Source of the DNA: Pseudonocardia sp. T1-2H
Lineage (GTDB): Bacteria > Actinomycetota > Actinomycetes > Mycobacteriales > Pseudonocardiaceae
Assembly (NCBI RefSeq): GCF_038039215.1
Contig: NZ_JBBPCL010000001.1
Location: 744,001 to 808,000, forward strand
Length of the DNA stretch: 64,000 nucleotides
Direction of reading: 5' to 3'
Below the pieces are notes generated by a model. The model ran no database searches and was not told where the DNA came from. It saw nothing but the letters and a program-made list of their open reading frames with translations. Position 1 is the stretch's first letter. Each line of letters starts with the position of its first letter. Positions 30,185 through 46,743 of this stretch are shown one piece after another. Both the position numbers and the translations under genes were made by a program.

Positions 30185-30210
30185 GCCCGGACACTCGTCC
30201 GGGCTTTTTT
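30185..30210 (+). terminator. Intrinsic terminator just inside attL
   Basis: GCCCGGAC-ACTC-GTCCGGGC followed by TTTTTT, the strongest U-tract terminator in the window. It would stop tRNA-Ala transcripts from entering the element and overlaps the last codons of int on the other strand. Confidence 0.93.
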
Positions 30211-30232
30211 CTTGTCCGGCCTCGGTGGCCGC

Positions 30233-30256
30233 TGAGTGACTAACTGAGTGACTAAC
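30233..30256 (+). repeat. Tandem 12-bp repeats, putative integrase arm sites (left, AICE)
   Basis: TGAGTGACTAAC occurs twice without a gap, 57 bp inside attL and within the 3' end of int. The same pair, with one base missing from the second unit, lies at 46580-46602 inside attR. Confidence 0.75.
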
Positions 30257-31379
30257 CGCCGTGAGTGGGAACAGATCATCCATCGCTGTGGTGCCTTCGT
30301 CGAGCACCGGCTTGAGCTGCTTCCGATAGACGGCCTCGGTGACAGCGGTCCCGCTGTGCCCGACGAGCCGTGAGATCTGCTCCAGCGGAACGCCGGACTC
30401 GGAGAGCAGCGAGACGAAGCTGTGCCGCAGCTCGCGTGGGGTCCATGCCTTCGGATCGAGCCCGGCCGCCTCGACGACCCGCCGGAAGGTGCGCCGGACG
30501 TTGTGCGCGTCCATCCCGGTCCCGTTGGCGGTCGCGAACACGAGGTCGTCAGGGTCGACGGCGCGGCCAACCTTGTGCCGCCGGAGCGCGTCGACGCAGC
30601 GGAGCGGCATGGCGATCCGCCGCCTCGACTTGCGAGTCTTGGTGTCGCCGCCGAGCCGCACCGAGCGGAGAACGGAGATCGAGGGCGGGACCGGCGGAAC
30701 AGCGTCCGGCTTGCCGTCGAGGTCGACATCGGCCCAGCGCAGCGCGCGGAGTTCTTCGGTACGGGCGCCGACCAGCAGCGAGAGCACGATGTAGGCACGT
30801 AGCGGTGAGCCCTCGGCCGCGGTGAGGAGCTTCTCGGCCTGGGCGAACGTGAGTGACTTGGATGGCCGCCCGGCCTTGCCGGTAGGGATCTCGCAGAGCC
30901 CGACGACGTTGCGCCGGACCTTGTCGCGTGCCATCGCGTAGTTCACGGCGCGGTTGAGGATCGAGTGCATCAGCCGGAGCGTGCGGGTACTGACCTGCGA
31001 CGACTCGGCGCGGAGCCAACGGTCGACGTCCTCGGCCGACAGGTCTGCGAGCCGTCGACGGCCGAGCGGCGGGATGATGTGGTGGTCGCTGATGGTGCGG
31101 TAGTTCGCGACCGTCCCGGGGAGCGGCCGGACAGGGCGTAGTCGAGCCAGTAGCTGACCGCCTCGCCGACGGTGTAGCGCGGCGTGCGTGACGTCAGCCC
31201 GTCCTCGTGGTCCCGCAGGATCCGCTTGAGCTTGTCCTTCGCGGCGGTCTTGGTCGTCCCGCTGGCCTTCTTGGTGATCCGCTTTCCGCGCCCGTCGAAG
31301 CCGAGCGTGGCTGTGGCGATCCACCGCTGGCGGGTCTCGTCCCAGTGCAGTCCGCCTTCCCCTCGGTTGCGTCGGGTGG

Positions 31380-31580
31380 TCACGAGGCGATGCCGAAGTC
31401 GTCGGATTCCCGCTCCAGGAGCGCGATGTAGTCGGCGATGGCGGAGGCGGGGATGAGCCGGACGCGGCCGACCCGGACCGAGCGGAGGCGACCGCTGCGA
31501 AGCTCTTCGTACAGGGTGCTGCGGCCGAGGGAGAGCAGCGCCATGACGTCCGGCACCCGGTACAGCTCCTTGGCGTTCAC
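31380..31580 (-). CDS. xis: Excisionase / HTH protein
   Basis: A 66-residue MerR/excisionase-like winged helix: ELYRVPDVMALLSLGRSTLY, EELRSGRLRSVRVGRVRLIP. It directs the integrase toward excision in pSAM2-type elements. Stop and start codons overlap those of rep (upstream) and int (downstream), so the three are translated together. Confidence 0.9.
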   Translation of the reverse strand: MNAKELYRVPDVMALLSLGRSTLYEELRSGRLRSVRVGRVRLIPASAIADYIALLERESDDFGIAS

Positions 31581-32908
31581 GGTCCGGTCCTCCTGGTCGT
31601 CCGTCGGTCGTCGCGGATGCGTTCGGCGTGGGCGATGGCGAGTTCGCGGTCGGTGTCGGTGTGGTGGCCGATGCCGACGAGGTGCCAGTCGTTGATGACG
31701 ATCACGGGGTCGTCGGCGGGGTGGCCGAGGTGGTCGAGCTGTTCGGCCAGGCGCCAGGCCCGACGTTCACCGCGGATGACGCGGAAGGTGGTGGAGTAGG
31801 CGCGGCTCTTGGTGAGGAAGTGGCCGCGGAACCCGAGCATGTGGGCCCATTTGCGCAGGTTGAGCTCCGCGTACTGGGCGAGGCCGCCGAGGTGCCAGGC
31901 GGTTTCGATGAGGCGCCGGTGGTGGGTGGCCAGGTGCATCCGCTCGAGGTGGGCCAGGGAGCGGATGGGGCGGTCGGGGTGGCCGTCGGTCTTCCCGGTG
32001 CCCTTGGTGGCGTATTTGGCGATGTAGCCGGCCAACCGGCTGTCGGTGATCTCGCCGGACTCGTCGGTGACCGCGTCGTGGGCGGTGGGAGTGATCTCGC
32101 GCAGGTCGAGCTGCGCGCCCCAGCGCAGGGTGAGGGTGGTGCCGTCGGGCCGGGCGACGTCCAGGCCGGTCGCGGTGGCCGCCTCGTGGACGGCGTCGCG
32201 GAGGGCTTCGGCGGTGAGCCCGGCGGGTGGTGGGTCGGCGGGTCCGTCGGGGCCGTCGAGCCGGATCGCGGCGTGGAAGTGCACGAGCCCGCGGCGTTGG
32301 TATTCGGCGACCTTGGCGTAGGACAGCCGGGCGACCTGGCCGAACCGACGTCCGGAGACCCCGAGCCGGGCGGCGAGGGCACGGCGCAGGGTGATGGCGA
32401 AGCGGTGCCAGAGCTTCCCGGCGTGGGCCTGCCAGAGGACCGCGGCGGTGTAGTCGTAGCTGTCGTGGTCGATCGCGCCGCCGAGGTTCGGGTCGTGGTC
32501 GCGGTGGTGGACCCCGCAGGCGCAGGGGATGACCCGGCCGCGGGTGGTGAGCCGTCGGGTGTGGACGGGCCCGAACGAGGGCGCGGTGAGGGTGAGGAAC
32601 AGGCGGGGCCGGTCGGTCACGGTGGCGGGGATGCCGCGCTCTTGTCCGGCGAGTCCGGCGCGGATGAGGTGGAAGGCGTCGGCGGCGTAGCGGTCCGAGC
32701 AGGACGGACAGACGGTGTCGCGGCGGTTCCCGCACGGCGCCCACACCTCCCCGGTGCGCTGGGCCAGGACCCGCCCGTCGGAGGTGGTGATGGTCGAGGA
32801 GCCGCGCAGCCGGACGGGGTGGGCGCAGCCGCCGGTGGCCTCCATCCGGGCCCGCCACGTCGGGTAGTCGAAGGAGCGGAGCCGCGCGGTCAGTTCCAGG
32901 TCGCTCAT
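31577..32908 (-). CDS. RepSA-like replication initiator (rolling circle)
   Basis: A 443-residue protein. A cysteine cluster (CAHPVRL, CGNRRDTVCPSCSDRYAADA) precedes a HUH nickase core: RRGLVHFHAAIRLDG supplies the HxH metal motif and LAGYIAKYATKGTGKT the catalytic-Tyr helix, as in RepSA of pSAM2. It nicks the origin and starts rolling-circle replication of the excised element. ATG 32908 overlaps the stop of the upstream gene (ATGA). Confidence 0.92.
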   Translation of the reverse strand: MSDLELTARLRSFDYPTWRARMEATGGCAHPVRLRGSSTITTSDGRVLAQRTGEVWAPCGNRRDTVCPSCSDRYAADAFHLIRAGLAGQERGIPATVTDRPRLFLTLTAPSFGPVHTRRLTTRGRVIPCACGVHHRDHDPNLGGAIDHDSYDYTAAVLWQAHAGKLWHRFAITLRRALAARLGVSGRRFGQVARLSYAKVAEYQRRGLVHFHAAIRLDGPDGPADPPPAGLTAEALRDAVHEAATATGLDVARPDGTTLTLRWGAQLDLREITPTAHDAVTDESGEITDSRLAGYIAKYATKGTGKTDGHPDRPIRSLAHLERMHLATHHRRLIETAWHLGGLAQYAELNLRKWAHMLGFRGHFLTKSRAYSTTFRVIRGERRAWRLAEQLDHLGHPADDPVIVINDWHLVGIGHHTDTDRELAIAHAERIRDDRRTTRRTGP

Positions 32909-33477
32909 CGTGGGTAGACCTCGTGTTCGTGTTCGATCTCGACGGGGTCGGCGCGCAAGCCGTGGTGGCGGGCGAGGCGTTCGGCACCGGCCCGGTAGGA
33001 ACGGGCCCGCCCGATGACCTCCCCGGCGCTGGTCTCGACGAGGTAGCTGCCGTTCTCGCGGACGATGGCGCCGGAGAACTCGTCCGCGGTGACCAGGCCA
33101 TGCCCGGGGCGGACGACGTCGACGAAGACCCGCACCCGGTCCCCTGGCTGGGCCTTGGAGGCCGCGACGGCGGCGACGTCGACGGTGGTGGCTGCTTCGG
33201 GTTCTGCGCGGCCATCGACAGTGACGGTCACCCGGGACCCGTGGACGAGGCGCCCGGCGGCCAGGAGGTGATGCACCGTGGCGGCGACGTCCGAGCGGGC
33301 AGGGATGGCGTGCTCGGCAGCGCGGGTGCCGATGTGGCGGGTGTGCACGGCCTCGCCGACGCCGACCAGGACGAAGCCGGGATCGCGGGCGTCGCGCAGC
33401 ACGCGGTCGGTGACTTCGTCGTCGAACAGCAGGGCTTGCCCGGCCGCCTCCCGGCGCTGGCGGGGGAGGCGGCTCAT
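32905..33477 (-). CDS. AICE accessory protein of unknown function
   Basis: A 190-residue, mixed alpha/beta and acidic protein: RQRREAAGQALLFDDEVTDR at the start, a Val/Asp-rich centre (TVDVAAVAASKAQPGDRVRV) and HGLRADPVEIEHEHEVYPR at the end. ATG 33477 overlaps the stop of the small membrane gene and its own stop overlaps rep, so it is inside the replication-transfer operon. I recognise no domain. Confidence 0.75.
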   Translation of the reverse strand: MSRLPRQRREAAGQALLFDDEVTDRVLRDARDPGFVLVGVGEAVHTRHIGTRAAEHAIPARSDVAATVHHLLAAGRLVHGSRVTVTVDGRAEPEAATTVDVAAVAASKAQPGDRVRVFVDVVRPGHGLVTADEFSGAIVRENGSYLVETSAGEVIGRARSYRAGAERLARHHGLRADPVEIEHEHEVYPR

Positions 33478-33692
33478 CGCGTCCACCACCACGAGTAGCG
33501 GGCCTCGGCACCCCATTCAGCGGCCAGCGCGCGGGTCGCCCGGTACTCGATCAGAGCGGCGCCGATGGCAGCGACCCAGAACCAGCCGGAACCGGTGCCG
33601 AGCACGAGCCAAAACAAACCGACGACGGCGGCGAGGGCGAGGGTGACGCGCAGCCAGGTCGCGGCGGCCCATCCGGTGACGGCCCACATCAC
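33474..33692 (-). CDS. Small AICE membrane protein (Spd-like position)
   Basis: A 72-residue protein with two hydrophobic stretches (WAAATWLRVTLALAAVVGLF and VLGTGSGWFWVAAIGAALIE) and a basic C-terminus. Its ATG overlaps the stop of the FtsK/TraB gene. Small membrane proteins beside traB in related elements act in intramycelial spread (Spd); that role here is inferred from position only. Confidence 0.7.
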   Translation of the reverse strand: MMWAVTGWAAATWLRVTLALAAVVGLFWLVLGTGSGWFWVAAIGAALIEYRATRALAAEWGAEARYSWWWTR

Positions 33693-35122
33693 GCCGCCTC
33701 GCCATCGCCGACGGCCCGCAGCCCGGGGGTGGCCGGAGGGGTGCAGCGAGCGACGAGCTCGTCGATCTCCTCATCGGTCACCAGGGCGGCGCGGAACCGG
33801 ATCGGCAGCCGCGAGCGCTGGTCGATCACGTAGCCGATCCCGGCGTGCGCTTGATCGCCGGGGATCTCGTCGGCCAGCGCGCCCCGCTCCCGGGCACCGT
33901 CGCCGAGGACCATGTCCACGTGGGAGCTGGCGGTGACGCCGAGGCAGATCCGGGTGGGGAACAGCTCGCGGACGTCCACGACGTCCTTGGACGGTTCCTG
34001 CACGTAGCCCATGACGCTGGTGAGACAGGCGCGGCCCTGGGTGAGGATCTCGGCGAGCAGGCGCAGGGCCTCGCGGACGTCGCCGCGTTCGCCGTAGGCG
34101 GTGAGCATCGCCATCTCGTCGATCACGACCAGGTCCAGCGGCGTGGTCGGGGAGACGTCGAGGCGCCGGAGCCCGTGGGCGGCCATGTGGGCCTGGCGGG
34201 TCTTCATCTCGTCCCGCACGGCGGTGAGCAGGGCGATGGCCTCGGCCGCGGTGGTGGCGTGGCGGTGGAACAGCGGCGCTCCGCGGTGGGTCTCGGCGCC
34301 GCCCTTCAGATCGATCACGTGCAGCCGCACCAGCCGGTCGCGGATGGCGGGGCCCATCGCGCGCAGCGGTGCCCAGATCAGCGAGCCCTTGCCCGGGCCG
34401 GTGGCGCCGGCCACCAGGACGTGACGGCCGGGCACGCCCAGGGTGAAGGGGTGGCCGTACTCATCCTCACCGACCGGGAGCGCGGCGAGATCGACGAGAT
34501 CGGTCTCGGCGGGGATCGCCGGTGCGGGGATGGGCAGGGTGAAGGGCATCTGTCGCTCGACCACGACGGTGAGCACGCCGGGGCGGTGGCGCGTGACCGC
34601 GACCCGGTGGGCGCGCATCGCATCGGCGAGGGTCTCGGTGCGCCCCGTCCACAGCGTGAGGTCCTGGCCGCGGGTCAGACGGACCCGCAGGGTGTCGATC
34701 GAGCGAGTGGCCGAGCGGACCCGCAGCACCCGCGGGGCGTCGATGCGGCCCGTGTGGTGGTTCTCCCTCGCGAGGCCGCAGTCGGCGAGTAAGGCCGCCC
34801 AGCGGCGGCCGCGGTAGGTGGTCCAGCGCCGCCAGGCCGCACGCAACATGGGGGCGGCGAAGCGGTCAAACGTGGGAGGGTGCAGCCGCCCCCACACCAC
34901 CACGGCCAGCAGCAGCGAGCCGATAGTGATCGCGGCCGGGAGCAGGCCGACGAGCACCGCGGCCACGACGAGGGCGGCAGGGATAAGCAGGAACAGGGGG
35001 TGGCGGGCCAGCCAGGCCAGGCCGCGGAACTCGCCGCCGACCGGGCGGGAGGAGTGCCGGACCGTGGGGCGGTGGTGCGCCTCGGCGTGGCGCAGGGACG
35101 GGCGGTGCAGCGGGCGGGCCAT
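33689..35122 (-). CDS. FtsK/SpoIIIE-type DNA translocase (TraB-like)
   Basis: A 477-residue protein: two N-terminal membrane spans (~45-85, HPLFLLIPAALVVAAVLVGL), then an FtsK ATPase with Walker A LVAGATGPGKGSLIW (about residue 241, Pro where Ser is usual) and Walker B LDLVVIDEMAML (about 337). It is the single protein that moves double-stranded DNA between mycelia in AICE transfer. A C-terminal gamma-like HTH is not obvious. It shares its operon with rep, xis and int. Confidence 0.92.
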   Translation of the reverse strand: MARPLHRPSLRHAEAHHRPTVRHSSRPVGGEFRGLAWLARHPLFLLIPAALVVAAVLVGLLPAAITIGSLLLAVVVWGRLHPPTFDRFAAPMLRAAWRRWTTYRGRRWAALLADCGLARENHHTGRIDAPRVLRVRSATRSIDTLRVRLTRGQDLTLWTGRTETLADAMRAHRVAVTRHRPGVLTVVVERQMPFTLPIPAPAIPAETDLVDLAALPVGEDEYGHPFTLGVPGRHVLVAGATGPGKGSLIWAPLRAMGPAIRDRLVRLHVIDLKGGAETHRGAPLFHRHATTAAEAIALLTAVRDEMKTRQAHMAAHGLRRLDVSPTTPLDLVVIDEMAMLTAYGERGDVREALRLLAEILTQGRACLTSVMGYVQEPSKDVVDVRELFPTRICLGVTASSHVDMVLGDGARERGALADEIPGDQAHAGIGYVIDQRSRLPIRFRAALVTDEEIDELVARCTPPATPGLRAVGDGEAA

Positions 35123-35124
35123 GA

Positions 35125-35334
35125 TCAGACTCCCTTGCGGATGGCGAGCTGGGCCAGGCGCAGGCCCTCGGCGACCCCGGCGCGCCAGGCCTGTTCGGTC
35201 GGGACCTCCGGGGTGGTGGCGTGCAGGAACCGGCGGCGCTCGCGGTCCAGGCGGCGCACCAGGCGACCGACGCCGTGGGCGGGCTGACGGACCCGGCCGT
35301 GGCGGACGGGCTTCTCGGTGGCGGTCAGGGACAT
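35125..35334 (-). CDS. Small basic AICE protein
   Basis: A 69-residue protein rich in Arg and His (GVGRLVRRLDRERRRFL), with a helical C-terminus (AWRAGVAEGLRLAQLAIRKG). It sits 2 nt upstream of traB and overlaps the gene before it by 10 nt. Function unknown. Confidence 0.65.
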   Translation of the reverse strand: MSLTATEKPVRHGRVRQPAHGVGRLVRRLDRERRRFLHATTPEVPTEQAWRAGVAEGLRLAQLAIRKGV

Positions 35335-35546
35335 GTCGTCTCCTCGGGCGTGGTGGCGGTGCAGGGGGTTGCGGTGCCGTGACAGCCGGGGCAGGTGCCG
35401 TCGCCGAGGCAGGCGGGGCAGTCCCGGCCGTCGCCGGCGCCGGGTGAGGTGTCCGGGGTGGTGCCGTAGCCGTCGCAGACGTCGCACGAGCCGGAGCCCG
35501 AGCAGCCGCCACAGACGGCGGTGGTGGTCGCGGTGGTGGTAGTCAT
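35325..35546 (-). CDS. Small cysteine-rich protein with DnaJ-like zinc-finger repeats
   Basis: A 73-residue protein: CGGCSGSGSCDVCDGYG and CPACLGDGTCPGCHG are CxxCxGxG-type repeats as in the DnaJ zinc finger, without a J domain. The linker and N-terminus are Thr-rich. It probably folds around two zincs. First gene of the tight traB-int run. Confidence 0.65.
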   Translation of the reverse strand: MTTTTATTTAVCGGCSGSGSCDVCDGYGTTPDTSPGAGDGRDCPACLGDGTCPGCHGTATPCTATTPEETTCP

Positions 35547-35700
35547 CGGGGCCTCCGGTGCTGGTGGTGGCCTGTTTTCGGGCAGGGGGCAGCCACTGCG
35601 GAATTGCGGTGATTTCGCCGAATCAGTGAGGGGTCGGCTGCCCCGTGCCCGAGCGCGGCCGGTCAGGCCGCCGGGAGGTGGGCCGTGAGGCCCGGTGCTG

Positions 35701-36081
35701 CTACTTGTCGCCGCTCGGGCGCGGTGCCGGGGCCGAGGCGTGCTTGATGCCCATCGCCCGCCACGCGAGCCCGGAGTTCACCCGACCTGCGGTCTCCACC
35801 TGGTAGGGGGAGACCCGGGCGTCGAGCAGCTCGACCCGCACGTCCTCCCCGAAGTCCGGCCCGGGATCGGTGGACAGGGTCACCTTGATCTCCTCGCCCT
35901 TCGGGGCCCGCTCGCCCGGCTTGACCCGCAGCTTCGCGAACAGCGACACCGTGAACTGCGTGGCGCCGTCGCGGTCGGTCACCGGCACCTGGGCGCCGTT
36001 GGCGTCGTCGCGCATCTTCGGGGCGGGCGGCTCCACGATGGTCAGCTTGTAGCCGCCGAGGTTCACCGGAATGTCTCGCAT
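35701..36081 (-). CDS. Conserved-looking AICE protein, function unknown
   Basis: A 126-residue soluble beta-rich protein: MRDIPVNLGGYKLTIVEPPA, FTVSLFAKLRVKPGERAPKG, EDVRVELLDARVSPYQVETA. ATG 36081 faces the divergent HTH gene across a 122-bp control region. It is the first gene of the minus-strand AICE operon. I do not recognise a family. Confidence 0.7.
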   Translation of the reverse strand: MRDIPVNLGGYKLTIVEPPAPKMRDDANGAQVPVTDRDGATQFTVSLFAKLRVKPGERAPKGEEIKVTLSTDPGPDFGEDVRVELLDARVSPYQVETAGRVNSGLAWRAMGIKHASAPAPRPSGDK

Positions 36082-36111
36082 CGCTCTTGCTCCTTCAGTC
36101 GGTGCGTGTAG

Positions 36112-36195
36112 GCCCCTAAACATTTGAAGTAGTGATGTTGAGGGGGCTAAACCGATGATGCCGCTCGGCGAGCCTACTTGTCAAGGGGCCTAAAC
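36112..36195. promoter_or_regulatory. Divergent control region with three TAAAC repeats
   Basis: GCCCCTAAACA (36112-36122), GGGGGCTAAAC (36142-36152) and GGGGCCTAAAC (36185-36195) are near-identical and similarly oriented. They lie between the minus-strand AICE operon and the plus-strand HTH gene, so they could be operators for the HTH protein. Confidence 0.5.
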
Positions 36196-36203
36196 TCGCG
36201 GGC

Positions 36204-37029
36204 GTGGATGAGGAGTTCGAACGCCTGCGCCGGGAGCCTGACCCGGTGCGCCGAGGGCGCAGGGCGACCGAGCTTCCTGGCTACCTACCAGCAGCGCTCG
36301 GTGGAACTGGCGCGGCTGCGGCGGGCCGCGATCGAGGAGGCCCGGGACCAGCTCGGCGGCAGCTACACCGAGGTCGCCAAGGCGTTCGGGCTGACCAAGG
36401 GCCGGATCACTCAGATCCGCAACAGCGCCCCGCCCGCGCACCGGGCGTTCTTCGGGGTCGGCCCGCTCGACGTCGCGGTGGTCGGCCGGCGCATCCTGGA
36501 GCGCGAGGACATGGTCATCGCAGCCGAGGACGACGCGGTAGGCGCGCACCTGATCGCCGAGGCCGAGCAGCTCGCGTTCACCGCCGAGCGGCTGGTCGTC
36601 GACCCGCGCGAGGAGTGGGCACCGACCCACGACGCGATCGTGGTGTGCGGCCCCGCGTCGGCGCACATCGGCAACGCGCTGATGAGCGAGGACCCCGTAC
36701 TCGGCATGACCATCGCCGACGGGGGCCGCTGGTACATCGTGGACAAGGTGACGGGGGAGCGGTTCGCCTCGCCGATGGACGACCCCGAGCCCCGCCGGGC
36801 AGACATCGCCTACCTCGCCCGCCACGTCCGGGACGGCCAGGTCATCACCCATATCGCCGGAGTCCACGCCCTCGGCTCGATCGGCGCCGCGCACTACCTG
36901 ACCGAGCACCTGGCCGAGCTGTACGCCGAGCACGACAGCGAGTCGTTCAGCATGGCCGTGACCGCCGAGTTCGACGGCCTCATCCCCAGGAGCGTCGACG
37001 TGCTCGTCCCGCCGCGCGCATGGGCCTGA
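36204..37029 (+). pseudogene. HTH protein of unknown class, one frameshift
   Basis: A GTG at 36204 opens MDEEFERLRREPDPVRRGRR-ATEL; removing one C near 36270 (CTTCCTGG) joins it to LATYQQRSVELARLRRAAIE and a sigma-region-4-like HTH (SYTEVAKAFGLTKGRITQIR, ~45-75). The remaining ~200 residues form an alpha/beta domain (DAIVVCGPASAHIGNALMSE, ADIAYLARHVRDGQVITHIA) that I do not recognise; it looks like a nucleotide- or small-ligand-binding Rossmann-type fold. It overlaps the next gene (PP2C) by 10 nt and stands opposite the AICE operon. Confidence 0.7.
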
Positions 37030-37837
37030 TCGTCCACGCCGCCATGCTGCCCGGGGAGAGCCGCCGGGGCAGGACCGCTGGAGCGTCAGCCAACGGGGCG
37101 CGGTCGTCCTCGACGGAGCCAGCTCGCACAGCCCCGAGGCGCCGGACGCCAGCGCCTACGTCGACCGGCTGCTACCCGCGATCCTCGCCCGGCTCGATGA
37201 CGGCGACCTCCAGACCGTCTTGCGCGACGCGATCACCGAGACCGCCGAGGCCCTGGCCCTGGTGCCCGGTGCAGCGCCATCGTCGACAGTCTTGCTGCTG
37301 CGCGTCGACGACGAGGCCGTCGAAGTCGCAGCGCTCGGCGACAGCACCGCCATCATCGGCCACCCCGACGGCACCACGACCCGCCTGTCCGACGACCGCC
37401 TCGCACGCGTCGGGGCCGAGCAGCGGCGTGCCTACCGCGAACACCTGCGGCGGGGGAGTGGCTTCGGTCCCGAGCACAGGGACCGTCTGAGCGAGCTACA
37501 GCGCGGCGAGTTCCCACACCGGAACCGGCCCGGGGGCTACTGGATCGCAGAGGCCGATCCCGCGGCCGCCGACGAGCTGCTCATCCGTTCGTTCCCACCC
37601 GAGGTTGTCTCCTGGGTTGTGCTCGCCACCGACGGGATCCAGAAGCACATCGACCGGCTCGGTGGCCGATGGGACGCCGTCGCGAGCCAGGGCAACGACC
37701 AGCTCGCCGCGTTCCTTCAGGACGCGCACGCTTGGGAGACCGAGGCAGATCCGGACGGGACCGCCTTGCCCCGATCCAAGCGCCACGATGACAAGACCAT
37801 CGTCGCCTGGCAGCCCGCCCTGTCACCCATCAACTGA
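37020..37837 (+). pseudogene. PP2C-family protein phosphatase, one frameshift
   Basis: ATG 37020 opens MGLIVHAAMLPGESRRG; adding one G at about 37063 continues QDRWSVSQRGAVVLDGASSH and then DAITETAEALALVPGA, VAALGDSTAII, SWVVLATDGIQKHID and RHDDKTIVAW. The Asp residues in VLDGAS, LGDS, ATDG and HDDKT are the metal site of PP2C enzymes. Length (~272 residues) is normal. It starts inside the end of the HTH gene, so the two act together, perhaps as a phosphorylation-controlled switch for the AICE; this is inference. Confidence 0.78.
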
Positions 37838-38162
37838 GACCGCGTCTCGCTGGCTCTCTGTCCGAAAGCCGCCATGACCTGCAGTTTCGCCCAGCTCAGG
37901 GCCGCGGGGTTCAGACTTTCTCTACCTGTTCAAGGCGGCGCCTGCGGCGCCGCGCGGCGCTCTGCCTGATGAAGCCGCAAGCGCTCGCGCGGGGCGTGCG
38001 GCCTCCGGCCGGTCCCCGCGCGGCGCGCGGCTCGAACAGTGGCTGCCGTAGGTATGTAACATCGAACGTCCGACAGACGAAGTACCTGCGACCGGCGATG
38101 CGCCTAACCAGATGCTCTATCGAGTGACCTACACATCTAATAAATTGCACTGGGGGACCAAG
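37838..38162. other. Intergenic region with GC-rich palindromes; base composition changes here
   Basis: GGCGCCTGCGGCGCC and further GC-rich inverted repeats occupy ~37930-38035, resembling a stretch at 7240-7330. From ~38040 the sequence turns markedly more AT-rich and stays so to ~41180. Confidence 0.5.
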
Positions 38163-38582
38163 ATGGACTTCGATATAGCAGCTCTCGTCGCGACGGGCGG
38201 AACTGCACTAGTAGAGATTATGGCCACGGACGCCTGGTCCGAGGCAAAGCACATTATTAAACGACTGTTCGGGCGGTCAGCTAGCGGGAACGACGACGCT
38301 GGCTTCGACGCGGAGCTGGAAGAAGCTCGCACAGAAGTGATCGAGGCGCGAGACCATGGGGATGCACAACGAGAATCTGAACTCGTGACCGAATGGTCGA
38401 GTCGTATTCGCCGGACTGTGCAGTCCAACCCGGAGGCATCCCAGGCCCTTATCGACCTCATCGAACTTCGGAAGACTTACCGCGACAATGGAACAGGAGA
38501 CACTTCCTCGACTAATACGGCCATCGCCAACGACAAAAGCCGCGTCTACCAGCAGGGCTCCGGCCAGCAGTACAACTTCTGA
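38163..38582 (+). CDS. Small helical partner protein of the NTPase-TPR module
   Basis: A 139-residue protein. Residues 1-30 (DFDIAALVATGGTALVEIMA) could form a membrane-proximal or amphipathic helix. The middle is charged and helical (AELEEARTEVIEARDHGDAQ) and the last 11 residues are YQQGSGQQYNF. GGGGGACC precedes ATG 38163. It ends 3 nt before the NTPase gene, whose residues 22-32 are YQQNSGIQLNI, nearly the same peptide. The base composition differs from the surrounding AICE. No family recognised; a sensor or adaptor role is inferred. Confidence 0.75.
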   Translation: MDFDIAALVATGGTALVEIMATDAWSEAKHIIKRLFGRSASGNDDAGFDAELEEARTEVIEARDHGDAQRESELVTEWSSRIRRTVQSNPEASQALIDLIELRKTYRDNGTGDTSSTNTAIANDKSRVYQQGSGQQYNF

Positions 38583-38585
38583 GTC

Positions 38586-41177
38586 ATGACGAGAGAACGA
38601 TCCCACGCGGACCCTATCCATGGCCATGCTAACGACGAATCTCACCTCTATCAGCAAAATTCCGGAATCCAACTCAATATAGACGAAGCCTACTTTGGCG
38701 ATGATGGACTCGCATCGCGTTTGCGACTGCCCGGTGTTACATGGAACCCAGACGACTGGCCCACAGTTGCGGAATGGGATCCGCTCGACCTTGGAGTTCA
38801 TCGCGCTCCAATAAATGACGGCAACGCGGTTCCTCTCTACGTTCAACGGGATGTCGATACCAATCTCGGCGAATCAATCACGCATGCCGCCGAGAATGGC
38901 GGCATGGTGATCGTTATTGGCGACTCTACGGCGGGCAAGACTCGATCTTCTTATCAGGCTCTCCGTTCCAGGATGCCACAACGACGTCTCTACCGACCCG
39001 AAGCCGTGAGCGAGTTTCGCGCCTCCGTTGTTAGCCTCCTAGCTTTCGGGGGCAGTTGGGTAATTTGGCTTGACGATCTTGAGCGATTCATTGGACCTAG
39101 CGGAATCACTCCCGGCATTCTTCTTCAGCTGAAGCGCGCGAAAATCGCATGCGTCGCAACTATTCGGAGCGAGCAATACCGGCGATTCGAAGACGTTCCA
39201 GGCGACACGGACGAACACGCAATTAGTGAATTCCGACGGATCGTCGATCAATCGCGCACAATTCTCCTGCCGCGTCGCTGGTCTGAGGCCGAACTTGCCC
39301 GAGCAGGCAGTTCGACGGATCCACGGATTCGCGAGGCAATATCACACGGCCAACTGTTTGGCGTTGCTGAGTACCTTGCGGCCGGACCACTCTTGCGAGA
39401 GATTTGGGAAACAGCCTGGGGAGCGGGTGCCAATCCACGAGGTGCAAGTCTCGTGGCAGCGGCGGTGGACTGCTCGCGAGCAGGCGTCGACGTGCCACTA
39501 CCGTCCGAGTTCTTGAGAAGCCTCCACGAATTCTACCTAGAGCGTGCCGGAGGAGAAATCTTGGCACCCGAGACCTTCGTGGAGGCACGCGCATGGGCAA
39601 CTCGGCGGCGCATGGGTGTAGCAAGCTTGCTCATTCCAAGTGACAATGGAGAAAAACTTCGTGCATTCGAGTATCTGCAAGATTCAATTAGCCGAGAGGA
39701 GGGATACTCTGCCGTACCTAGCGAAGTCTGGAAATCCGTCGTGGACTTCGCGGGGCAAGACGTCGGATTGCTATTTGGAATAGCATACTCCGCGAAAAAT
39801 CACGGACTTATCGACGTCGAGATCGATTGCTGGCGCAAAATTTCGGAGTTCACTCACAGCCCACGCGACTTGACAAGTCTAGGAAGAGTCCTTCTTCGAG
39901 CGAGTCGAGATGATGAAGCATTAGGGCTGTTTGAATCAGCCGCTGCCTCCGGCGATATTGAGAGCAACACCCAGCTTGGGATCTATCTTCAGAACGCTGA
40001 ACGCCAAAATGAAGCGAAAGAATTCCTGCTCCTATCAGCAGAAGCGGGGGATGCACATGCAGCACTTCACCTCGCAATCCTCCTTAGGGATCAGAATTCT
40101 CTGGAAGATGCAGAGAAATGGTATCGAAAAGCACATGAGGCGAATCGCGACACCGATACTAGCACCGGCCTAGCCTCAGTTCTGGCCGACAGAGGACTTG
40201 ATGAAGAGGCAGACCGCCTTTTTGAGTCTATTATCCGTGAAGCCAGCGATTCTGACGACCTCAACGGAATCGGGATTGCGGCCGATAAGGCTGGCCGTCA
40301 TCAGATTGCTGCGGAGATGTGGGATCGCGCAATCGAGCTGGGCGACGGAAATGCTGCAGCAAATCGAGCGCAACAGCTGGACGAGGCAGGCGACGTCGCC
40401 GGTGCTGACGCCCTCTGGGCAAAGAGTATTCAATTGGGTTGTGCGGCGGCTCTACTAGGCCACGCCAGACTCCTTTGGCGGACAGGCCAAGTCGAAGAAG
40501 CAGAAGCGAAGTACATCTCTGCATTGGCCTTAGACGTCGAGGGGGCCGAACTATGCTACTCCACGGACCTGTATAACTCAGGACGGTTTGACGACGCAGA
40601 GAAGTACCTCAGAGTCGCCCTGGAAAAGGATCCCGATAACGCCCCAGCTGCATACAATATGGCCTTCCTCCTGGAACGCCGCGGAGCGGACAAACTCGAA
40701 TCCGAACAATGGCTCGTTCGGGCCGCCCAAAATGGTAGCATCCACGCGAGCGCTCGCCTTGGAGAGCGACTTTTCGAGCGCGGCCAATTCCATGAGGCTC
40801 GCCGACACCTCCTAGTGGCCGCAGAGGATGGCGACGAAGTTGCAGCCTGCCATCTCGGCACCGTCCTCGCTCGCCTAGAGGACTGGGAGGAGAGCAATAA
40901 GTGGTTCAATGCATCATACGATAGTGGACACTTTCATGCAGGTTGCGTTCACGGATCCAGTCTTCTCATGCAAGGCAGCATTGATGAGGCGATCCAACGA
41001 TTCATACTAGCCGCTCGTGGCGGCCACATGCACGCCGCGGAAGTCCTAGAGAAACTATTTCGCGATATCGGGAATTTCAAGGACGCTGCATACTGGCACG
41101 GTTTTCGCAGCGGAAGGAATCAGATTTCCAAACCGAACAAAAAGCAGAGCAAGAAATCCAGAAGGCGTCGTCGATAG
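38586..41177 (+). CDS. P-loop NTPase with TPR/Sel1 repeats (STAND-like, candidate defence protein)
   Basis: An 863-residue protein. N-terminal motif YQQNSGIQLNI (22-32). NTPase domain: Walker A VIGDSTAGKTRSSYQ (about 112-119), Walker B WVIWLDDLERFI (about 163), a STAND-like arginine sensor ACVATIRSEQYRRF (about 197), then a helical region to ~420. From ~430 to ~830 at least ten 33-36-residue TPR/Sel1-like repeats (EALGLFESAAASGDIESNTQ, DAEKWYRKAHEANRD, EAEAKYISALALDVEGAELC). The C-terminus is very basic (KKQSKKSRRRRR). This layout fits signal-sensing NTPases of prokaryotic conflict systems, but no effector domain is visible. Confidence 0.82.
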   Translation: MTRERSHADPIHGHANDESHLYQQNSGIQLNIDEAYFGDDGLASRLRLPGVTWNPDDWPTVAEWDPLDLGVHRAPINDGNAVPLYVQRDVDTNLGESITHAAENGGMVIVIGDSTAGKTRSSYQALRSRMPQRRLYRPEAVSEFRASVVSLLAFGGSWVIWLDDLERFIGPSGITPGILLQLKRAKIACVATIRSEQYRRFEDVPGDTDEHAISEFRRIVDQSRTILLPRRWSEAELARAGSSTDPRIREAISHGQLFGVAEYLAAGPLLREIWETAWGAGANPRGASLVAAAVDCSRAGVDVPLPSEFLRSLHEFYLERAGGEILAPETFVEARAWATRRRMGVASLLIPSDNGEKLRAFEYLQDSISREEGYSAVPSEVWKSVVDFAGQDVGLLFGIAYSAKNHGLIDVEIDCWRKISEFTHSPRDLTSLGRVLLRASRDDEALGLFESAAASGDIESNTQLGIYLQNAERQNEAKEFLLLSAEAGDAHAALHLAILLRDQNSLEDAEKWYRKAHEANRDTDTSTGLASVLADRGLDEEADRLFESIIREASDSDDLNGIGIAADKAGRHQIAAEMWDRAIELGDGNAAANRAQQLDEAGDVAGADALWAKSIQLGCAAALLGHARLLWRTGQVEEAEAKYISALALDVEGAELCYSTDLYNSGRFDDAEKYLRVALEKDPDNAPAAYNMAFLLERRGADKLESEQWLVRAAQNGSIHASARLGERLFERGQFHEARRHLLVAAEDGDEVAACHLGTVLARLEDWEESNKWFNASYDSGHFHAGCVHGSSLLMQGSIDEAIQRFILAARGGHMHAAEVLEKLFRDIGNFKDAAYWHGFRSGRNQISKPNKKQSKKSRRRRR

Positions 41178-41210
41178 GCCAGAGCTTGTGCCGGGGCACA
41201 TCTCCTCAGT

Positions 41211-41213
41211 TTA
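41211..41213. repeat. Target-site duplication TTA (left)
   Basis: TTA immediately left of the left inverted repeat, matched by TTA at 43454-43456 on the right, in line with the short TNA-type duplications of the IS427 group of the IS5 family. Confidence 0.7.
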
Positions 41214-41283
41214 GACCTGGTCTCAAAACTTAGGGTGTGTCGCTGCGTAACCTGCCGGTCCTGGTCGTCGATCGTGGGCAGTC

Positions 41284-42125
41284 GTGGCGAAGACGACGCA
41301 GCAGCGACGGGTCGAAGACCGGCTCTGGGAGCTGATCGAACCCCTGATCCCGTCCCGACCAGCGCCGCGCGGTCCGGGTGGGCGGCCCCGGATCGATGAC
41401 CGTGCCGCGCTAGAGGGGATCTTGTTCGTGCTCGACACCGGCTGCCGCTGGCGAGACCTACCCGAGCAGCTCGGATGCGGTTCCGGGCACACCGCGTGGC
41501 GGCGGTTACGTGAGTGGCAGGACGCCGGCGTGTGGGACCGGCTGCACCAGCTCGTGCTCGACGAGCTGTCCGACATCGACGAGCTCGACTGGACCAGAGG
41601 CTGCATCGACGCGGTGTCGGTGCGGTCGAAAAGGGGGGCGAGCTGACCGGCCGCAGCCCCACTGACCGGGGCAAAGCCGGCTCCAAGTACCACGTTCTGT
41701 GCGACGCGAACGGGCTACCGCTGCACGTCATGTTGTCGGCGGCAAACACCCACGACAGCATGCTGTTTGAGCCGCTGCTGGACACGAACCCGACCGTGCG
41801 CGGCCACCACGGCCGGGCGGGCCGGCCACGATGCCGACCGGACAAGCTGCACGCCGACAAGGGCTACGACTACCGCCGCTGCCGCCGCTACCTGACCCGC
41901 CGCGGTATTAAGGTCCGTATCGCCCGGCGCGGGATTGAGGACAAGTCCCGCCTCGGCCGGGTCCGCTGGGTCGTCGAACGCACCATCTCCTGGCTGCTGC
42001 GGTTCAAACGCCTCGGGCTGCGCTACGACCGGACCGAACGCACCACGCTGGCGCTACTCACGCTGGCCTGCACCGTGATCAACGTCCGCCGGCTCATAAA
42101 GATCGAGCTCTGCGACCAGGTCTAA
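41284..42125 (+). CDS. IS5-family transposase, two frames joined by programmed frameshift
   Basis: OrfA (41284-41646) contains the HTH start RRVEDRLWELIEPLIP, GGRPRIDDRAALEGILFVLD and the first catalytic Asp in GCIDAVSVRSK. OrfB, in the -1 frame, continues GGELTGRSPTDRGKAGSKYH, LHADKGYDYRRCRRYL (second Asp) and RWVVERTISWLLRFKRL (Glu), completing the DDE triad. The frames overlap at CGAAAAGGGGGGC (41628-41640), a slippery run typical of IS427 elements, so the break is probably functional. It ends at TAA 42123-42125. Confidence 0.9.
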
Positions 42126-42355
42126 CGCATCCATTCACTCGTTTGGGATACATCGGTAGCTCTGTGTCGTTGGGTGGGGGTGACTGGTGAGCTTCTGAGC
42201 GCGGAGCAGGTCCTCGGGTCGGCACGAGGCCCCCGTCACCACGAGGGAGATCGATCTCCTGGAGGAGGCTGCAGCCGCGTTGCTGACGGCACCATCGACG
42301 GGGATGAACGAGCACTCTCGTCGGGAAGTGATCAGCCATCGGTGGGGCCGCCTCT

Positions 42356-43303
42356 TCAGAGGCGTTCGATGCGGTCGGCCTGCGGGCCCCGGTCGCTCTG
42401 ACGCACCGCGTACCGGACCCGGTCACCCTTCTGCAGCGGCTCCGACCCCATGATCACGGACACGTGGGCGAAGAGATCGTCGCCGCCTGCGTCCGGGGTG
42501 ATGAAGCCGAAGCCGCGGTCGCCGTCGTAGCGCGCGACGACGCCCTCGCCGCCTCGTACGGGCACGTCCCGCGCCGCCGGCCCTGCGGCCGCGGCAGGTG
42601 CCGACCGCTGCGGCGCCGTCTGGGGCTCGGCGCCCCGGACCAGGTGCACGTCGCGGGCCTGCGGGCCCTTGTCTCCACTAGCCACCTCGTAGGCGACGCG
42701 GTCGCCCTCCGCGAGCCACGTCAGCCCCTCGGCCAGGGCCCGGGCGTGAACGAAGACGTCCCCGGCGCCGGAGTCGGGGTTGATGAAGCCGAAGCCCTTG
42801 TCCTCGTCGTACCAGGCCACCGTGCCGTCGGCACCGTCCGCGATGCCAGCCGCAGCGGGTGGGCCGGCCCCCGCTCCCAGCGGGATCACGTGCCCGGCCT
42901 GCGGGCCGCGCTCGCCTTCGACGATCAGGAAGGCCACCCGCTGCCCCTCGGTGACCACGCCGCCGGTCACGATGGCGGAGCTGTGCACGAAGATGTCGGC
43001 GCCGCCGCCGTCCGGCGACGCGAAGCCGTACCCCTTGCCCGGCTCGTACCAGTTGACGGTGCCGAGCAGGCCCACCGCGCTGCCGGTGGCCGCATCGGCG
43101 GTGACGCGAACGCGCAGCGCCTGGGGCCCGCGGTCGTTCTCGCCGACCTCGAACACGACGGCCTGACCCTCGCGGAGCACTTTCGCGCCGCCGTCCCCGA
43201 CGATCTCGGAGGCGTGCACGAACACGTCCGGCGAGCCGTCCTCGGGCGCGAGGAAGCCGAAACCCCGTTCGGCGTCGAACCAACGGACGGTCCCCTGCGG
43301 CAT
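42356..43303 (-). CDS. Protein with four tandem cold-shock domains, transposon passenger
   Basis: A 315-residue protein made of four CSDs with linkers: RGFGFL..DVFVH (1-66), KGYGFA..DIFVH (~76-142), KGFGFI..DVFVH (~155-222) and RGFGFI..DLFAH (~248-315). Each has the RNP1 and RNP2 motifs that bind single-stranded nucleic acid; most bacterial Csp proteins have only one. It should act as an RNA chaperone or ssDNA binder. ATG 43303 is chosen as the start of the first domain (PQGTVRWF). The gene lies inside the transposon ends, opposite to the transposase. Confidence 0.9.
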
Positions 43304-43504
43304 CAAAGGCTCCAGGTCGAGAGGGCGGGCACTGGCCCCCAGTCTCTCTGACAGACCTCGCGGTCCGTCAGGCCGGGCCCACAGGCGGGCGGTGCGGAGC
43401 CAGGGGCGGGCCGTTGGTCCACCTAGCGACACGCCGAGTTTTGAGACCAGGTCTTAGGCAAGAATAGTCGCCCTCGCCGGGCAGGCAGACCTCCGGGATG
43501 GGGG

Positions 43505-43644
43505 TGTGTCATCCCGTCGGCCTCCCCGAGGGCTACCACACGACGTCCCGGGGCAGAGCTTCACGACGTCGGCTGGCGGTTGCGTCGAGGGCTGCCCCCG
43601 GGCCACCGCGTGGTAGGGTATTGCCAGGCCGACGGGATGACACA
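43505..43644. repeat. 19-bp perfect inverted repeat flanking ~100 bp
   Basis: TGTGTCATCCCGTCGGCCT (43505-43523) is the exact complement of 43626-43644. The interior is GC-rich and structured, with no coding frame. It resembles a stretch at ~44735-44840, so it could be a small mobile or RNA element. Confidence 0.5.
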
Positions 43645-43791
43645 ACAAGCTCCAGGCGTGGTTGGGCGGAGCAAACCCGGAGCGAACATCGTGCGAGCGC
43701 CCGTCACGCGCTGAGATATGCCAGCACGAAGTCTCAGCTCAGACAATACGCGACGGCACGGGACGACAGCCGCCGGGCAGCCGGATCCGCC

Positions 43792-43833
43792 TTGACACCG
43801 AAGAGGTCACTGGTTCGATTTCACTATCGCCCA
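43792..43833 (+). repeat. Degenerate 3' end of a tRNA-Val(GAC), att-like
   Basis: TTGACACCGAAGAGGTCACT, then GGTTCGATTTCACTATCGCC, then CAC: this follows the anticodon loop (GAC), variable loop, T-arm and acceptor of an actinobacterial tRNA-Val with a few changes. The T-stem no longer pairs. A likely decayed attachment site from an earlier integration. Confidence 0.5.
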
Positions 43834-43974
43834 CTTCCATTGTCCCAGGCCAGCCCCCGTGCCAGTTGTGTGTCAGACTCCGCAGAATGGTCTGGCACGC
43901 ATCCCTGCCGTGTCAGACGATTCGTTGCTACTGCGACAGCAATTCGTGGGCACCTGCCACAGACACGTCCGCGA
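43834..43974. other. Intergenic cargo DNA, no gene seen
   Basis: Nothing supportable between the tRNA-Val-like remnant and the membrane-protein gene; 43304-43436 inside the transposon end is likewise without a gene. Confidence 0.3.
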
Positions 43975-44640
43975 CTACGTCTCACAATTCGGTCGTGGCG
44001 CGGCGGGCAGGTCGCGGCAAGCGACCGTGAGAAAGTCGGCGTACCGACGTGTGAACTCCGCCCGGTCGTACGAGTTGAGCCGCGCGTCAAGTGGAGGAAG
44101 TCCAGAGTTGACGTCTCCTGAGACCGCTCGGGGCAGGTAGGCCGCGATCGCTACAGCCTTGACGTACGCCTCGGGCGAGCCGTAAACGGACACCTTGTTG
44201 AACGTCTCCTGGAAGTCGTAACGGGCAGGAGCGAGGTCGGCGACGTGCCGACCACACTCGCCGTCGACTGTGAAACCTTCCTGGCCGTCAGGTCGACCGT
44301 CTCGCGCGGCGTTGAGGCAGGCCTGAACCTGGGCAGTGGTCGTTCCGTATCGATCTGCGGCGTCGAGAAACTTGAAGTAGACGTCCGCCTGGGTCGCCCG
44401 GCTCTCCTTTTCTCGCTCCTCTGCGATCTGTGCGGCCTGGGCGTCCGCCGCACTACGAGTCTGGATTAGAGACCCGCTCAGGGCGCCTCCAATGCCAATC
44501 ACTCCCGTGAGAACAGCAATGAGGAGGGTGTGACGGCGGTCTGCGGCCTTGTCGCTGCTGGCGGTGTGGCCTCCTGAGGAAGTCGAATCTGGTGAGTGCG
44601 GGGGCGGGGCGTCGGGCACCTCCGAATAATGACACTTCAC
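43975..44640 (-). CDS. Single-span membrane protein, unknown function
   Basis: A 221-residue protein with a Pro/Ser-rich cytoplasmic start, one membrane span (LLIAVLTGVIGIGGALSGSL), a coiled-coil (SAADAQAAQIAEEREKESRA) and a helical C-terminal domain with four Cys (CLNAARDG, DGECGRHV, VACRDLP, PNCET). GTG 44640 is inferred from the coding character. Cargo of the AICE; no family recognised. Confidence 0.55.
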   Translation of the reverse strand: MKCHYSEVPDAPPPHSPDSTSSGGHTASSDKAADRRHTLLIAVLTGVIGIGGALSGSLIQTRSAADAQAAQIAEEREKESRATQADVYFKFLDAADRYGTTTAQVQACLNAARDGRPDGQEGFTVDGECGRHVADLAPARYDFQETFNKVSVYGSPEAYVKAVAIAAYLPRAVSGDVNSGLPPLDARLNSYDRAEFTRRYADFLTVACRDLPAAPRPNCET

Positions 44641-44850
44641 CCCGACAACTTCGGCTGCCGTGCGAGACCTGGGTAGGGGTGCCGGTGGGTCGCGTCCTCG
44701 CTGGGCGGTGGCGGACCCGCGCCTTCCCGCCCGACCTCCCGGAGGGCTGCCGCACGGACGCCCGTGGGCCCGCCGGCGGTGGTGTCGAGGGCCGCCCACG
44801 GACGTCCGCACGGTCGGCTTGCAGCAGGTCGACAGGATGGCACTCAGAGC

Positions 44851-44884
44851 GACGCCACGGTTGCTGTACAGCAACCGTGGCGTC
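44851..44884. repeat. Perfect 34-nt palindrome
   Basis: GACGCCACGGTTGCTGT is followed directly by its exact reverse complement, with no spacer. It lies between the single-span protein gene and a convergent region; it could form a cruciform or a bidirectional terminator. Confidence 0.75.
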
Positions 44885-45048
44885 CGTGCCCCACCGAAAT
44901 CGAGCGTCAGCGGCTGCTCAGGGCCTTGATCGGCCCTCGCCGACTGCCTGGCCGGTAGTTCGCATCGAGAGGGTCAGCATGCTGCGAGTCTGGATGAAAC
45001 GCTTGGGGAGCTTTGGCGCAAGGCGGGTCCGGCAACTGGTCTGCAATG

Positions 45049-45579
45049 CTATGCCATTTGCACCCACCCCTCGACTTGGTAGCACCGCTCAACAAGCAAG
45101 ACAAGTTCTGTCAGCAGCTCCGGTAGCTGATCTGCCGTCAGAGATGTCCATTCCACCGGCTGATCAGGCTCCTGCCGTCTACCTGGCGGAGCATGGCGCC
45201 AGCCCCGAACCTGCTCCGACTTGGTGAACGGCCATAGGCTGTGGACGATCTCGTGACGTCCCCGCAGTGCGGAAGCGGAGCCGGTAAGGAACGCCTCGGC
45301 CTCGTCGCGGCGGTCTGGCCAGAAGCGGTGAAGTAGCTTGCGGCTCTCGCTAATGATCACAGTACCGGGCTTCCCCGCGAGAGTGGAGGGGGTTTGCCGC
45401 GTGTCAGGTGGTGTGGTCGCCAGCTCATCTCGCGGCATGCGGGACAGCTGGCCATAGAGTACGTAAAGCCGGTCCTCCAGCAGTGCGGAGACCAGGACGA
45501 TCCGCCCCACGAGGCCATAGAAGTCATCCTCTACCGCCCCGAACATCCACGACGGAACACCCCACCTGTCTGCAGCCAT
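45049..45579 (-). CDS. Hypothetical helical protein (AICE cargo)
   Basis: A 176-residue protein: FYGLVGRIVLVSALLEDRLY, SESRKLLHRFWPDRRDEAEA, GRHEIVHSLWPFTK. ATG 45579 is preferred because it avoids overlap with the upstream HIRAN gene, 10 nt away. The pattern (an Ile/Leu-rich helix followed by RHEIVHS) resembles HEPN-like or AbiV-like small proteins but lacks a clear RxxxxH motif, so I leave it unassigned. Confidence 0.55.
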   Translation of the reverse strand: MAADRWGVPSWMFGAVEDDFYGLVGRIVLVSALLEDRLYVLYGQLSRMPRDELATTPPDTRQTPSTLAGKPGTVIISESRKLLHRFWPDRRDEAEAFLTGSASALRGRHEIVHSLWPFTKSEQVRGWRHAPPGRRQEPDQPVEWTSLTADQLPELLTELVLLVERCYQVEGWVQMA

Positions 45580-45589
45580 CGCGATGGTG

Positions 45590-46285
45590 CTACGGCCACC
45601 GAAGATGCGCAGGCATAGGCGCACCAGGTGGCCGCGGAGTCATTAGGTGTCTCAGGACAGGAGGAGTAGCTGCCACAATTCCGATTTGACGGCATGCCCG
45701 CCCAGCTGCAGTCCCGCGAATAGCTATTGCATCTAGTGCGCCGCCAGCATCTAAGATCGGAGCTATCAGCCGTGCCCGCAATCGATCCACATATGCTGCC
45801 CGATGAGCGCCAGTTATGTCGTAGACGGCTATTGCGTTACGATCGTGTGGGTTGCCTGGCTCTCGGACAAGGCGGACCGGAGCGCCAGGAGAGAAGTCTC
45901 CGGAACTGGATCCGGACTCGTTGTACTTCTCGCCCCGAAGTTGTGAGGAGTAGATTCCGATTGATGACAGATATCGATTCTTCGGTGCGATCAGGAGACC
46001 TGTCTTATCCTCGCATAGTCGGAGAAGTTCTTCGCCGGATTGATCGCGGTACGGTATCAGCCTAATCGGCGGCACGCCATCAACAAGCTGAAATCTATAT
46101 TTCTGGTCCGGGCCTGACGGCACATACCAACGCATGTGCTTACCGTCGTCTGTTGCGGGTGTGTCATCCGGATCCTGCCGCCTGGATGTTGGGGAAGGCG
46201 CTTCACGGAGGGATTCAGGATCAACGGCCCGCCTATCTGAATTGGTCCATCTCGCTAGCCATGCAACTACCTCGCGTAGCGCCAT
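45590..46285 (-). CDS. HIRAN-domain protein
   Basis: A 231-residue protein. Residues ~85-210 fit a HIRAN domain: VRLVREPGNPHDRNAIAVYD followed by HRAAYVDRLRARLIAPILDA. HIRAN domains bind DNA ends or damaged DNA and are usually fused to helicases or nucleases; here the domain is nearly alone, with only a short N-terminal region (MALREVVAWLARW). ATG 46285 has GGAGGAG upstream; ATG 46318 is an alternative. It appears to form an operon with the downstream hypothetical gene. Confidence 0.7.
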   Translation of the reverse strand: MALREVVAWLARWTNSDRRAVDPESLREAPSPTSRRQDPDDTPATDDGKHMRWYVPSGPDQKYRFQLVDGVPPIRLIPYRDQSGEELLRLCEDKTGLLIAPKNRYLSSIGIYSSQLRGEKYNESGSSSGDFSPGAPVRLVREPGNPHDRNAIAVYDITGAHRAAYVDRLRARLIAPILDAGGALDAIAIRGTAAGRACRQIGIVAATPPVLRHLMTPRPPGAPMPAHLRWP

Positions 46286-46579
46286 CCCGCTCTCCTCCTC
46301 GGTCTCCCACAGGATCACCGGGCAGGAAACAGATCACAACCCACAGGGTCCGTACTGAACTCATCCCCGTCCAGGAGAGGACCTAGCACGCGGCGCCGAG
46401 GGTTCTGCGCCGGTCGGGCCGGCGGGGCACGTCTGGGGCACATCAGGGCCGGGACAGCCCAACACCCGCTGACACGACGTGGCAGCGGGTTGGCTGGTGA
46501 TCGAGGGTTCCGAGGGAGACACACAGACAGGAAGCGAGCCTGATTCGCGTTAGGAGAGCGGTGGTCGGCCGTCAAACGG
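46286..46579. other. AICE right-end region, no gene seen
   Basis: Non-coding as far as I can tell. It should hold the promoter of the HIRAN gene; the arm-site repeats begin at 46580. Confidence 0.4.
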
Positions 46580-46602
46580 TGAGTGACTAACTGAGTGACA
46601 AC
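46580..46602 (+). repeat. Tandem 12-bp repeats, putative integrase arm sites (right, AICE)
   Basis: TGAGTGACTAAC followed by TGAGTGACAAC (one T missing), 95 bp inside attR. The first 19 nt are identical to 30234-30252. Confidence 0.75.
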
Positions 46603-46696
46603 CGGACCGGGGAAGTAGGGACACTGGTGGACGCCGGCGGACAGCGCGCTGGTGGTCGCAGTGCCCGAGGCGGCGCCCGGCCGACGCTCCGAGTGC

Positions 46697-46743
<47 letters not shown>

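Follow-up and report, generated by a model that had tools for sequence, protein, structure and literature searches.

Bacterial amyloid-signaling pairs of the BASS/Bell type are reportedly the subject of Dyrka et al. (2020, J Mol Biol). BASS pairs, as portrayed in the accessible portions of four papers (PMC7889193, PMC8086366, PMC12261475, PMC9815663), are encoded by adjacent genes and carry the motif at the effector C-terminus and the receptor N-terminus. A fungal counterpart is the HELLP/PNT1 amyloid signalosome; the consulted part of PMC7889193 reports no sequence homology between Bell and HeLo domains. Avs5, of AVAST type 5, is reported to combine nSTAND3 with TPR/Sel1 and to resemble SAMD9 (PMC12931631, excerpted text). 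Here we describe two adjacent genes carried by an integrative element (AICE) in a 64,000-nucleotide stretch of Pseudonocardia sp. T1-2H (contig NZ_JBBPCL010000001.1, positions 744,001 to 808,000; the window). Their products, a small helical protein and a STAND-type NTPase with TPR/Sel1 repeats, share a peptide tag and probably form a two-gene receptor-effector system coupled through that motif. The pair has the layout of published BASS/Bell pairs; the original prediction, made from the letters of the window, therefore overstated its case in offering it as the best candidate for an undescribed system.

The upstream gene (38163..38582, + strand) encodes P0001, a Bell-like helical protein of 139 residues that is most likely the effector. 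Its start at 38163 was preferred over 38112 because homologs start there. The gap between its stop and the start of the second gene (38586..41177, +) is 3 bases. The latter encodes P0002, the putative receptor, an 863-residue STAND-type NTPase with a TPR/Sel1 array. The last 11 residues of P0001 (YQQGSGQQYNF) and residues 22-32 of P0002 (YQQNSGIQLNI), the latter within a disordered N-terminus, are identical at 7 of 11 positions. Extended by the upstream flank (ANDKSRVYQQGSGQQYN versus ANDESHLYQQNSGIQLN), the tags score 56, the top ungapped local score between the two whole proteins, and 0 of 300 joint shuffles of P0001 and P0002 reached this value (mean 34, maximum 49). The tag likeness of these neighboring proteins exceeds chance, bearing out the near-identity of the two peptides first noticed from the sequence. 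Codons differ between the genes at five of the seven identical residues; thus, the shared tag does not derive from a recent DNA copy.

Likeness to BASS/Bell pairs extends to a small helical effector, a STAND/NLR-like receptor, an actinobacterial host and motif classes matched within pairs, and rests on layout and motif resemblance rather than on BASS1-10 or Bell profiles. Differences are also evident. BASS/Bell receptors are NLR proteins (NB-ARC or NACHT plus repeats), whereas the window receptor lacks such a match and has STAND motifs and TPRs. The published BASS3 example reads QxGxGNxQxN, and the window core, QxGxGxQxN, is one residue shorter. Fungal HELLP/PNT1 is likewise a two-gene cluster in which the motif lies C-terminally on the effector and N-terminally on the receptor, and PNT1 also ends in TPRs, but its receptor is of NB-ARC type.

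Association between tag and effector gene was examined in relatives of the NTPase. In a first sample of 104 non-redundant NTPase open reading frames (ORFs), an effector gene lay directly upstream in all six tagged ORFs, the window included, and both partners bear the motif in 6/6 pairs of this class. Among untagged ORFs the effector was upstream in 0/98, with at least 450 bases of upstream sequence available for 95. Five of the tagged ORFs were found by regular expression, in Micromonospora (L031), Streptomyces lichenis (L032), Actinomadura hibisca (L033) and two Kitasatospora (L041, L055); the sixth is that of the window, whose own tag the expression missed (N25). Sampling leans to tag-bearing proteins because profile A1 was built from six such proteins. 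In a second sample, from Streptomyces, 3 of 31 ORFs without a regular-expression tag had an effector upstream. This sample drew on 65 listed places, of which 30 became loci, with L190 and L191 added; it holds some near-duplicates of earlier loci, and L192, a repeat of L032, was not counted. Tails are alike in two of the three exceptions, as a variant of the window tag class in L213 (FQQVSGTQHYH / FQQGHGIQIYY) and in the ISGG class in L201 (GVQHGPVVQ / GGSLANVVQ), while no tail match was visible in L205. Thus, the association tracks matching tails and not the window tag alone. Across L171, L172, L201 and L034-L044, ISGG/VVQ-type tails of Streptomyces effectors are similar to the N-terminal ends of GDSTAGK NTPases of a second class. 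Effector and NTPase adjoin each other in L201; for L171 and L172 they were either not linked or the partner was not found.

A test across the effector family compared the last 32 residues of each effector with a three-frame translation of its own downstream 650 bases, after removal of the effector's own last residues from the target. Thirteen of 82 ORFs were dropped as near-duplicates (54 of 60 residues) or for having fewer than 400 bases downstream, leaving 69 non-redundant effectors. True neighbors gave a mean score of 48.8 versus 30.2 for permuted neighbors (standard deviation 0.97, maximum 34.0 of 20,000). Control means were 26.3 for reverse frames and 28.1 for upstream DNA (66 cases). Scores of at least 42 were obtained for 45/69 true neighbors, as against 1/69 reverse frames, 3/66 upstream regions and 9% of unpaired combinations; the remaining 24 of 69 effectors showed no clear tail match (score <42). 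An earlier version using called P-loop neighbors, found for 24 of 63 effectors and later superseded by three-frame translation, gave 50.7 versus 27.9 over 24 pairs (0/20,000 permutations). Collectively, these pairing statistics strongly support coupling of the putative effector and receptor via the shared motif.

Pairing statistics speak to specific coupling, not to cross-beta structure, and genes 3 bases apart are probably coupled in translation. Both points would suit an ordinary docking motif, homotypic or binding a third partner, with no amyloid and a resting complex activated allosterically. We regard this alternative as unlikely. The motifs are short, rich in Q, N and G, and situated on both proteins in tails without a predicted fold; they are the same on both partners, not complementary; and one class resembles BASS3/RHIM, which has been studied as amyloid (PMC8086366 and PMC9815663, consulted in part). 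Templated cross-beta assembly is the most likely mode of coupling. The part of the original proposal of a common docking or oligomerization tag that holds up is a receptor and a partner encoded together on mobile DNA and linked by one tag, with plain docking kept as a rival.

The structural model of P0001 comprises a five-helix domain (residues 2-109) and a disordered tail (residues 112-139; mean pLDDT 80.9, pTM 0.70), and the protein has no match in Pfam, NCBIfam or PADLOC. Predicted structure and hydropathy mark helix 1 (residues 2-20; 38166..38222, +), its most hydrophobic stretch, as a candidate membrane helix, although only a moderately hydrophobic one (best 19-residue hydropathy 1.55, from residue 3). 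The C-terminal signaling motif, ANDKSRVYQQGSGQQYN-F, spans residues 122-139 of the disordered tail (38526..38579, +). Close relatives of P0001 are few (four proteins, P0001 counted), and profile searches revealed a wider actinobacterial effector family marked by the signature TDAW. In 41 of 43 effectors the 19-residue stretch of highest hydrophobicity starts no later than position 15, and the Kyte-Doolittle value of that stretch is at least 1.2 in 37 of these 43 members and at least 1.6 in 4. Across the family the C-terminal tail falls into several classes, among them YQxGxGxQxN, YQAGRDxHI and BASS3-like QVGDxNxQxN, and tends to resemble the N-terminal end of the neighboring receptor.

Such matching recurs with receptors of several types. 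The highest-scoring pair, ASGSARVYQAGRDQHITER / ASGQARIYQAGRDQHIVER (L185), belongs to the YQAGRDxHI class, and further matched classes are QYNAPGGNVVVH (L160) and QAVQGxGxQ (L156). In L022 the effector ends in BASS3/RHIM-like FQVGDHNRQDNRF and its neighbor has FQVGDNNVQN. These motifs resemble the published BASS3 peptide VDLRDAKGVQVGDGNVQINRF, for which the consulted part of PMC8086366 gives spectra typical of aggregates, and it is indirectly, through this family member, that the window effector is likened to Bell. Receptors of matched pairs include nSTAND1 proteins (with WD40 in L185 and L180), a NACHT protein (L181) and an NB-ARC protein with TPRs (L187); L017, read in part only, also has nSTAND1 in a matched pair, and the L180 match was seen by frame translation, not at the annotated start. 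One effector family combined with four STAND receptor types is the pattern of an output module, and both proteins carry a tag of one kind. These features argue against a toxin-antitoxin-like arrangement, in which the NTPase-TPR protein would keep its small neighbor in check and contribute to AICE maintenance; a small and a large gene side by side on a mobile element would fit that scheme, which we nonetheless consider very improbable. On a Streptomyces plasmid (L179:5001-6514), an effector is followed by a 354-residue MgtE_N protein with a tail motif common to both (KVFQVGQGNLTI / RVYQVAQGNMYI); no P-loop motif was found in the MgtE_N protein, and this motif partner is not NLR-like.

P0002 begins with a disordered tail in which residues 15-33 (ANDESHLYQQNSGIQLNID; 38628..38684, +) form a conserved island, the N-terminal signaling motif. 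A P-loop NTPase with a helical/winged-helix-like region follows (approximately residues 56-400; 38751..39785, +), weakly nSTAND3-like, and then a TPR/Sel1 superhelix, the presumed sensor (approximately residues 409-841; 39810..41108, +). In the model (mean pLDDT 88.1, pTM 0.65), residues 1-52 form a disordered tail and are followed by an alpha/beta P-loop core, the helical/winged-helix-like region and TPRs whose superhelix extends to residue 841. Features attributed to this protein at the outset were all found: Walker A (GDSTAGKT, residues 112-119), Walker B (VIWLDD, to D164), a STAND-like sensor arginine (T192/R194, sensor 1) and a long TPR/Sel1 array, along with G267-P268. Walker A, Walker B, T192-x-R194 and G267-P268 contain invariant or near-invariant positions across 38 relatives. 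The accompanying statement that the NTPase has no known effector domain is literally true, but the effector is most likely its small neighbor.

Strong Pfam matches in P0002 are limited to TPR-type repeats, and the Pfam scan gave no NB-ARC or NACHT match. Searches based on NB-ARC or NACHT could therefore miss this receptor. Its own nSTAND3 match (PF20720; E 0.21, 11.7 bits) is far under the cut-off of 27.2. Weak nSTAND3 matches were obtained with five of six NTPase-region fragments (best E 1.1e-4), as were AAA_16 matches (5/6, best 4.1e-4), and at a threshold of E <= 0.1, 13 of the 38 full-length relatives matched nSTAND3, the strongest at 3.3e-5. Two relatives, P0042 and P0045, are annotated with NACHT and nSTAND3. 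Foldseek matches are mainly TPR proteins; SAMD9 also appears, ranked 35th and 45th. PADLOC returned a single match at E 0.11 and none at E <= 0.1; no AVAST model was among the PADLOC matches listed, and no Sir2 match was found. With its weakly nSTAND3-like NTPase followed by TPR/Sel1, the window receptor recalls the nSTAND3-TPR/Sel1 layout of AVAST type 5, and structure searches of both give likeness to SAMD9. Unlike AVAST type 5, which has an N-terminal Sir2, the window receptor has disordered residues 1-52 in that position and a separate effector protein reached via a peptide motif, and its nSTAND3 match falls far below the cut-off. Assignment of the pair to AVAST type 5 was rejected because the Sir2 effector is absent. 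The literature searched on this topic, in the portions consulted, does not describe an nSTAND3-TPR receptor with such a motif.

Searches found 536 relatives of the receptor, 119 of which were listed. The tag was detected by regular expression in 30 of the 119, with neighboring genes seen for a minority of these 30, and 13 more have GxQxN within the first 110 residues, by chance, as variants or owing to truncated starts. In alignment A3, conservation of segment 14-33 (0.56) is on a par with the NTPase core (0.58 and 0.56) and above the tag flanks (0.30 for residues 1-13, 0.19 for 34-54), and Q23 occurs in 97% of rows and G27 and Q29 in 87%, values biased upwards because rows were hand-chosen, most for carrying the tag. 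Other relatives have the tail swapped for membrane-spanning helices, HTH-like regions or an ISGG..ARD-like motif.

Guided by the literature on BASS pairs (PMC9815663 among it, in the parts consulted), we assign the effector role to the small protein, sensing to the NTPase-TPR protein and coupling to the tag. We propose the following mechanism alongside the observed gene order, the two motifs, their conservation and the matching of motif classes between neighbors across receptor types. The TPR/Sel1 superhelix would sense an invader product, and nucleotide exchange, as expected from the family, would open the STAND NTPase and allow oligomerization. Disordered N-terminal YQxGxGxQxN motifs gathered in this way may fold into a cross-beta nucleus of RHIM/BASS type, onto which the C-terminal motif copy of the effector would be templated. 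By analogy with Bell, HeLo and HELL, clustering might then free the hydrophobic helix 1 to attack the membrane, killing or arresting the infected cell. Amyloid formation, killing and phage defense would thus be predicted activities of the pair.

The pair is cargo of a pSAM2-type AICE (30127..46743). This element is bounded by a 50-nucleotide direct att repeat, 98% identical, at 30127-30176, in the end of a tRNA-Ala gene (30099-30173), and at 46694-46743; it encodes a phage integrase, RepSA of pSAM2 type and an FtsK-like protein. An integrase beside a tRNA gene, RepSA, an FtsK-like protein and att repeats are common to pSAM2-type AICEs, a likeness that concerns the carrier and not the pair. GC content at the pair is 0.56-0.57 (three 1-kb windows), compared to 0.71 just before and 0.65-0.71 just after, so the initial description of two adjacent, AT-richer AICE genes was accurate. 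Of 297 family genomes, 29 contain a match to the effector at E <= 0.01, including the genome of the window itself; the 20 other listed genomes of the same genus contain none. Of 397 genomes searched across the order, 37 gave a profile match, and a narrower profile run on 396 genomes of the phylum gave 6. NTPase N-termini from several genomes of the family are the same as those of Umezawaea, Lentzea, Kibdelosporangium and Actinosynnema loci, and of one titled Rhodococcus rhodnii, which makes Pseudonocardiaceae the probable family. The distribution of the pair is patchy, not that of a core housekeeping operon. Plasmid records with an effector match number ten, nine of which were examined. The nSTAND1-WD40 pair of L180 (L180:1-9182) adjoins genes for TnsA-like, Mu-transposase-like, AAA ATPase and TniQ proteins, and resembles, from its gene content, cargo of a Tn7-like element.

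Patchy occurrence and locations on an AICE, on plasmids and next to genes like those of Tn7 fit defense cargo and weigh against a signaling switch with a non-lethal output, such as stress or development, in which the helical protein is an adaptor and not a killer. The latter nevertheless draws on the HTH-like or membrane-spanning N-termini of some NTPase relatives, on the MgtE_N protein as one motif partner and on the consulted literature, where the outcome of bacterial amyloid signaling is described as still to be explored. We judge a switch of this kind improbable, somewhat more so than plain docking. With motif-coupled defense as the preferred reading, the pair would bring together, in one compact set carried by an AICE, AVAST-like TPR sensors and amyloid-templated effectors, which are otherwise known as separate themes of defense. 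A wider view, which we advance tentatively and at less than even odds, has three joint parts. Exchanged, matched prion-like tags may act as an address code that connects a single family of helical killers to many sensors; these sensors would comprise nSTAND1-WD40, NACHT, NB-ARC-TPR and AVAST-5-like TPR NTPases, and even MgtE_N; and mobile elements may shuffle sensor-tag-killer sets, the AVAST-type sensor of the window, with no built-in enzyme, recruiting its killer by amyloid templating. Because a single effector fold bears many matched tails, the signaling specificity of bacterial amyloids becomes directly testable by swaps.

Other genes lie close to the pair. Upstream, 37220-37837 gives a PP2C-like phosphatase match, and directly downstream (41284-42125) two overlapping frames encode an insertion-sequence DDE transposase. 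Within the element, 42356-43432 (-) encodes a protein with four cold-shock domains, and a HIRAN-domain protein is encoded near the right att site (45590-46318, -).
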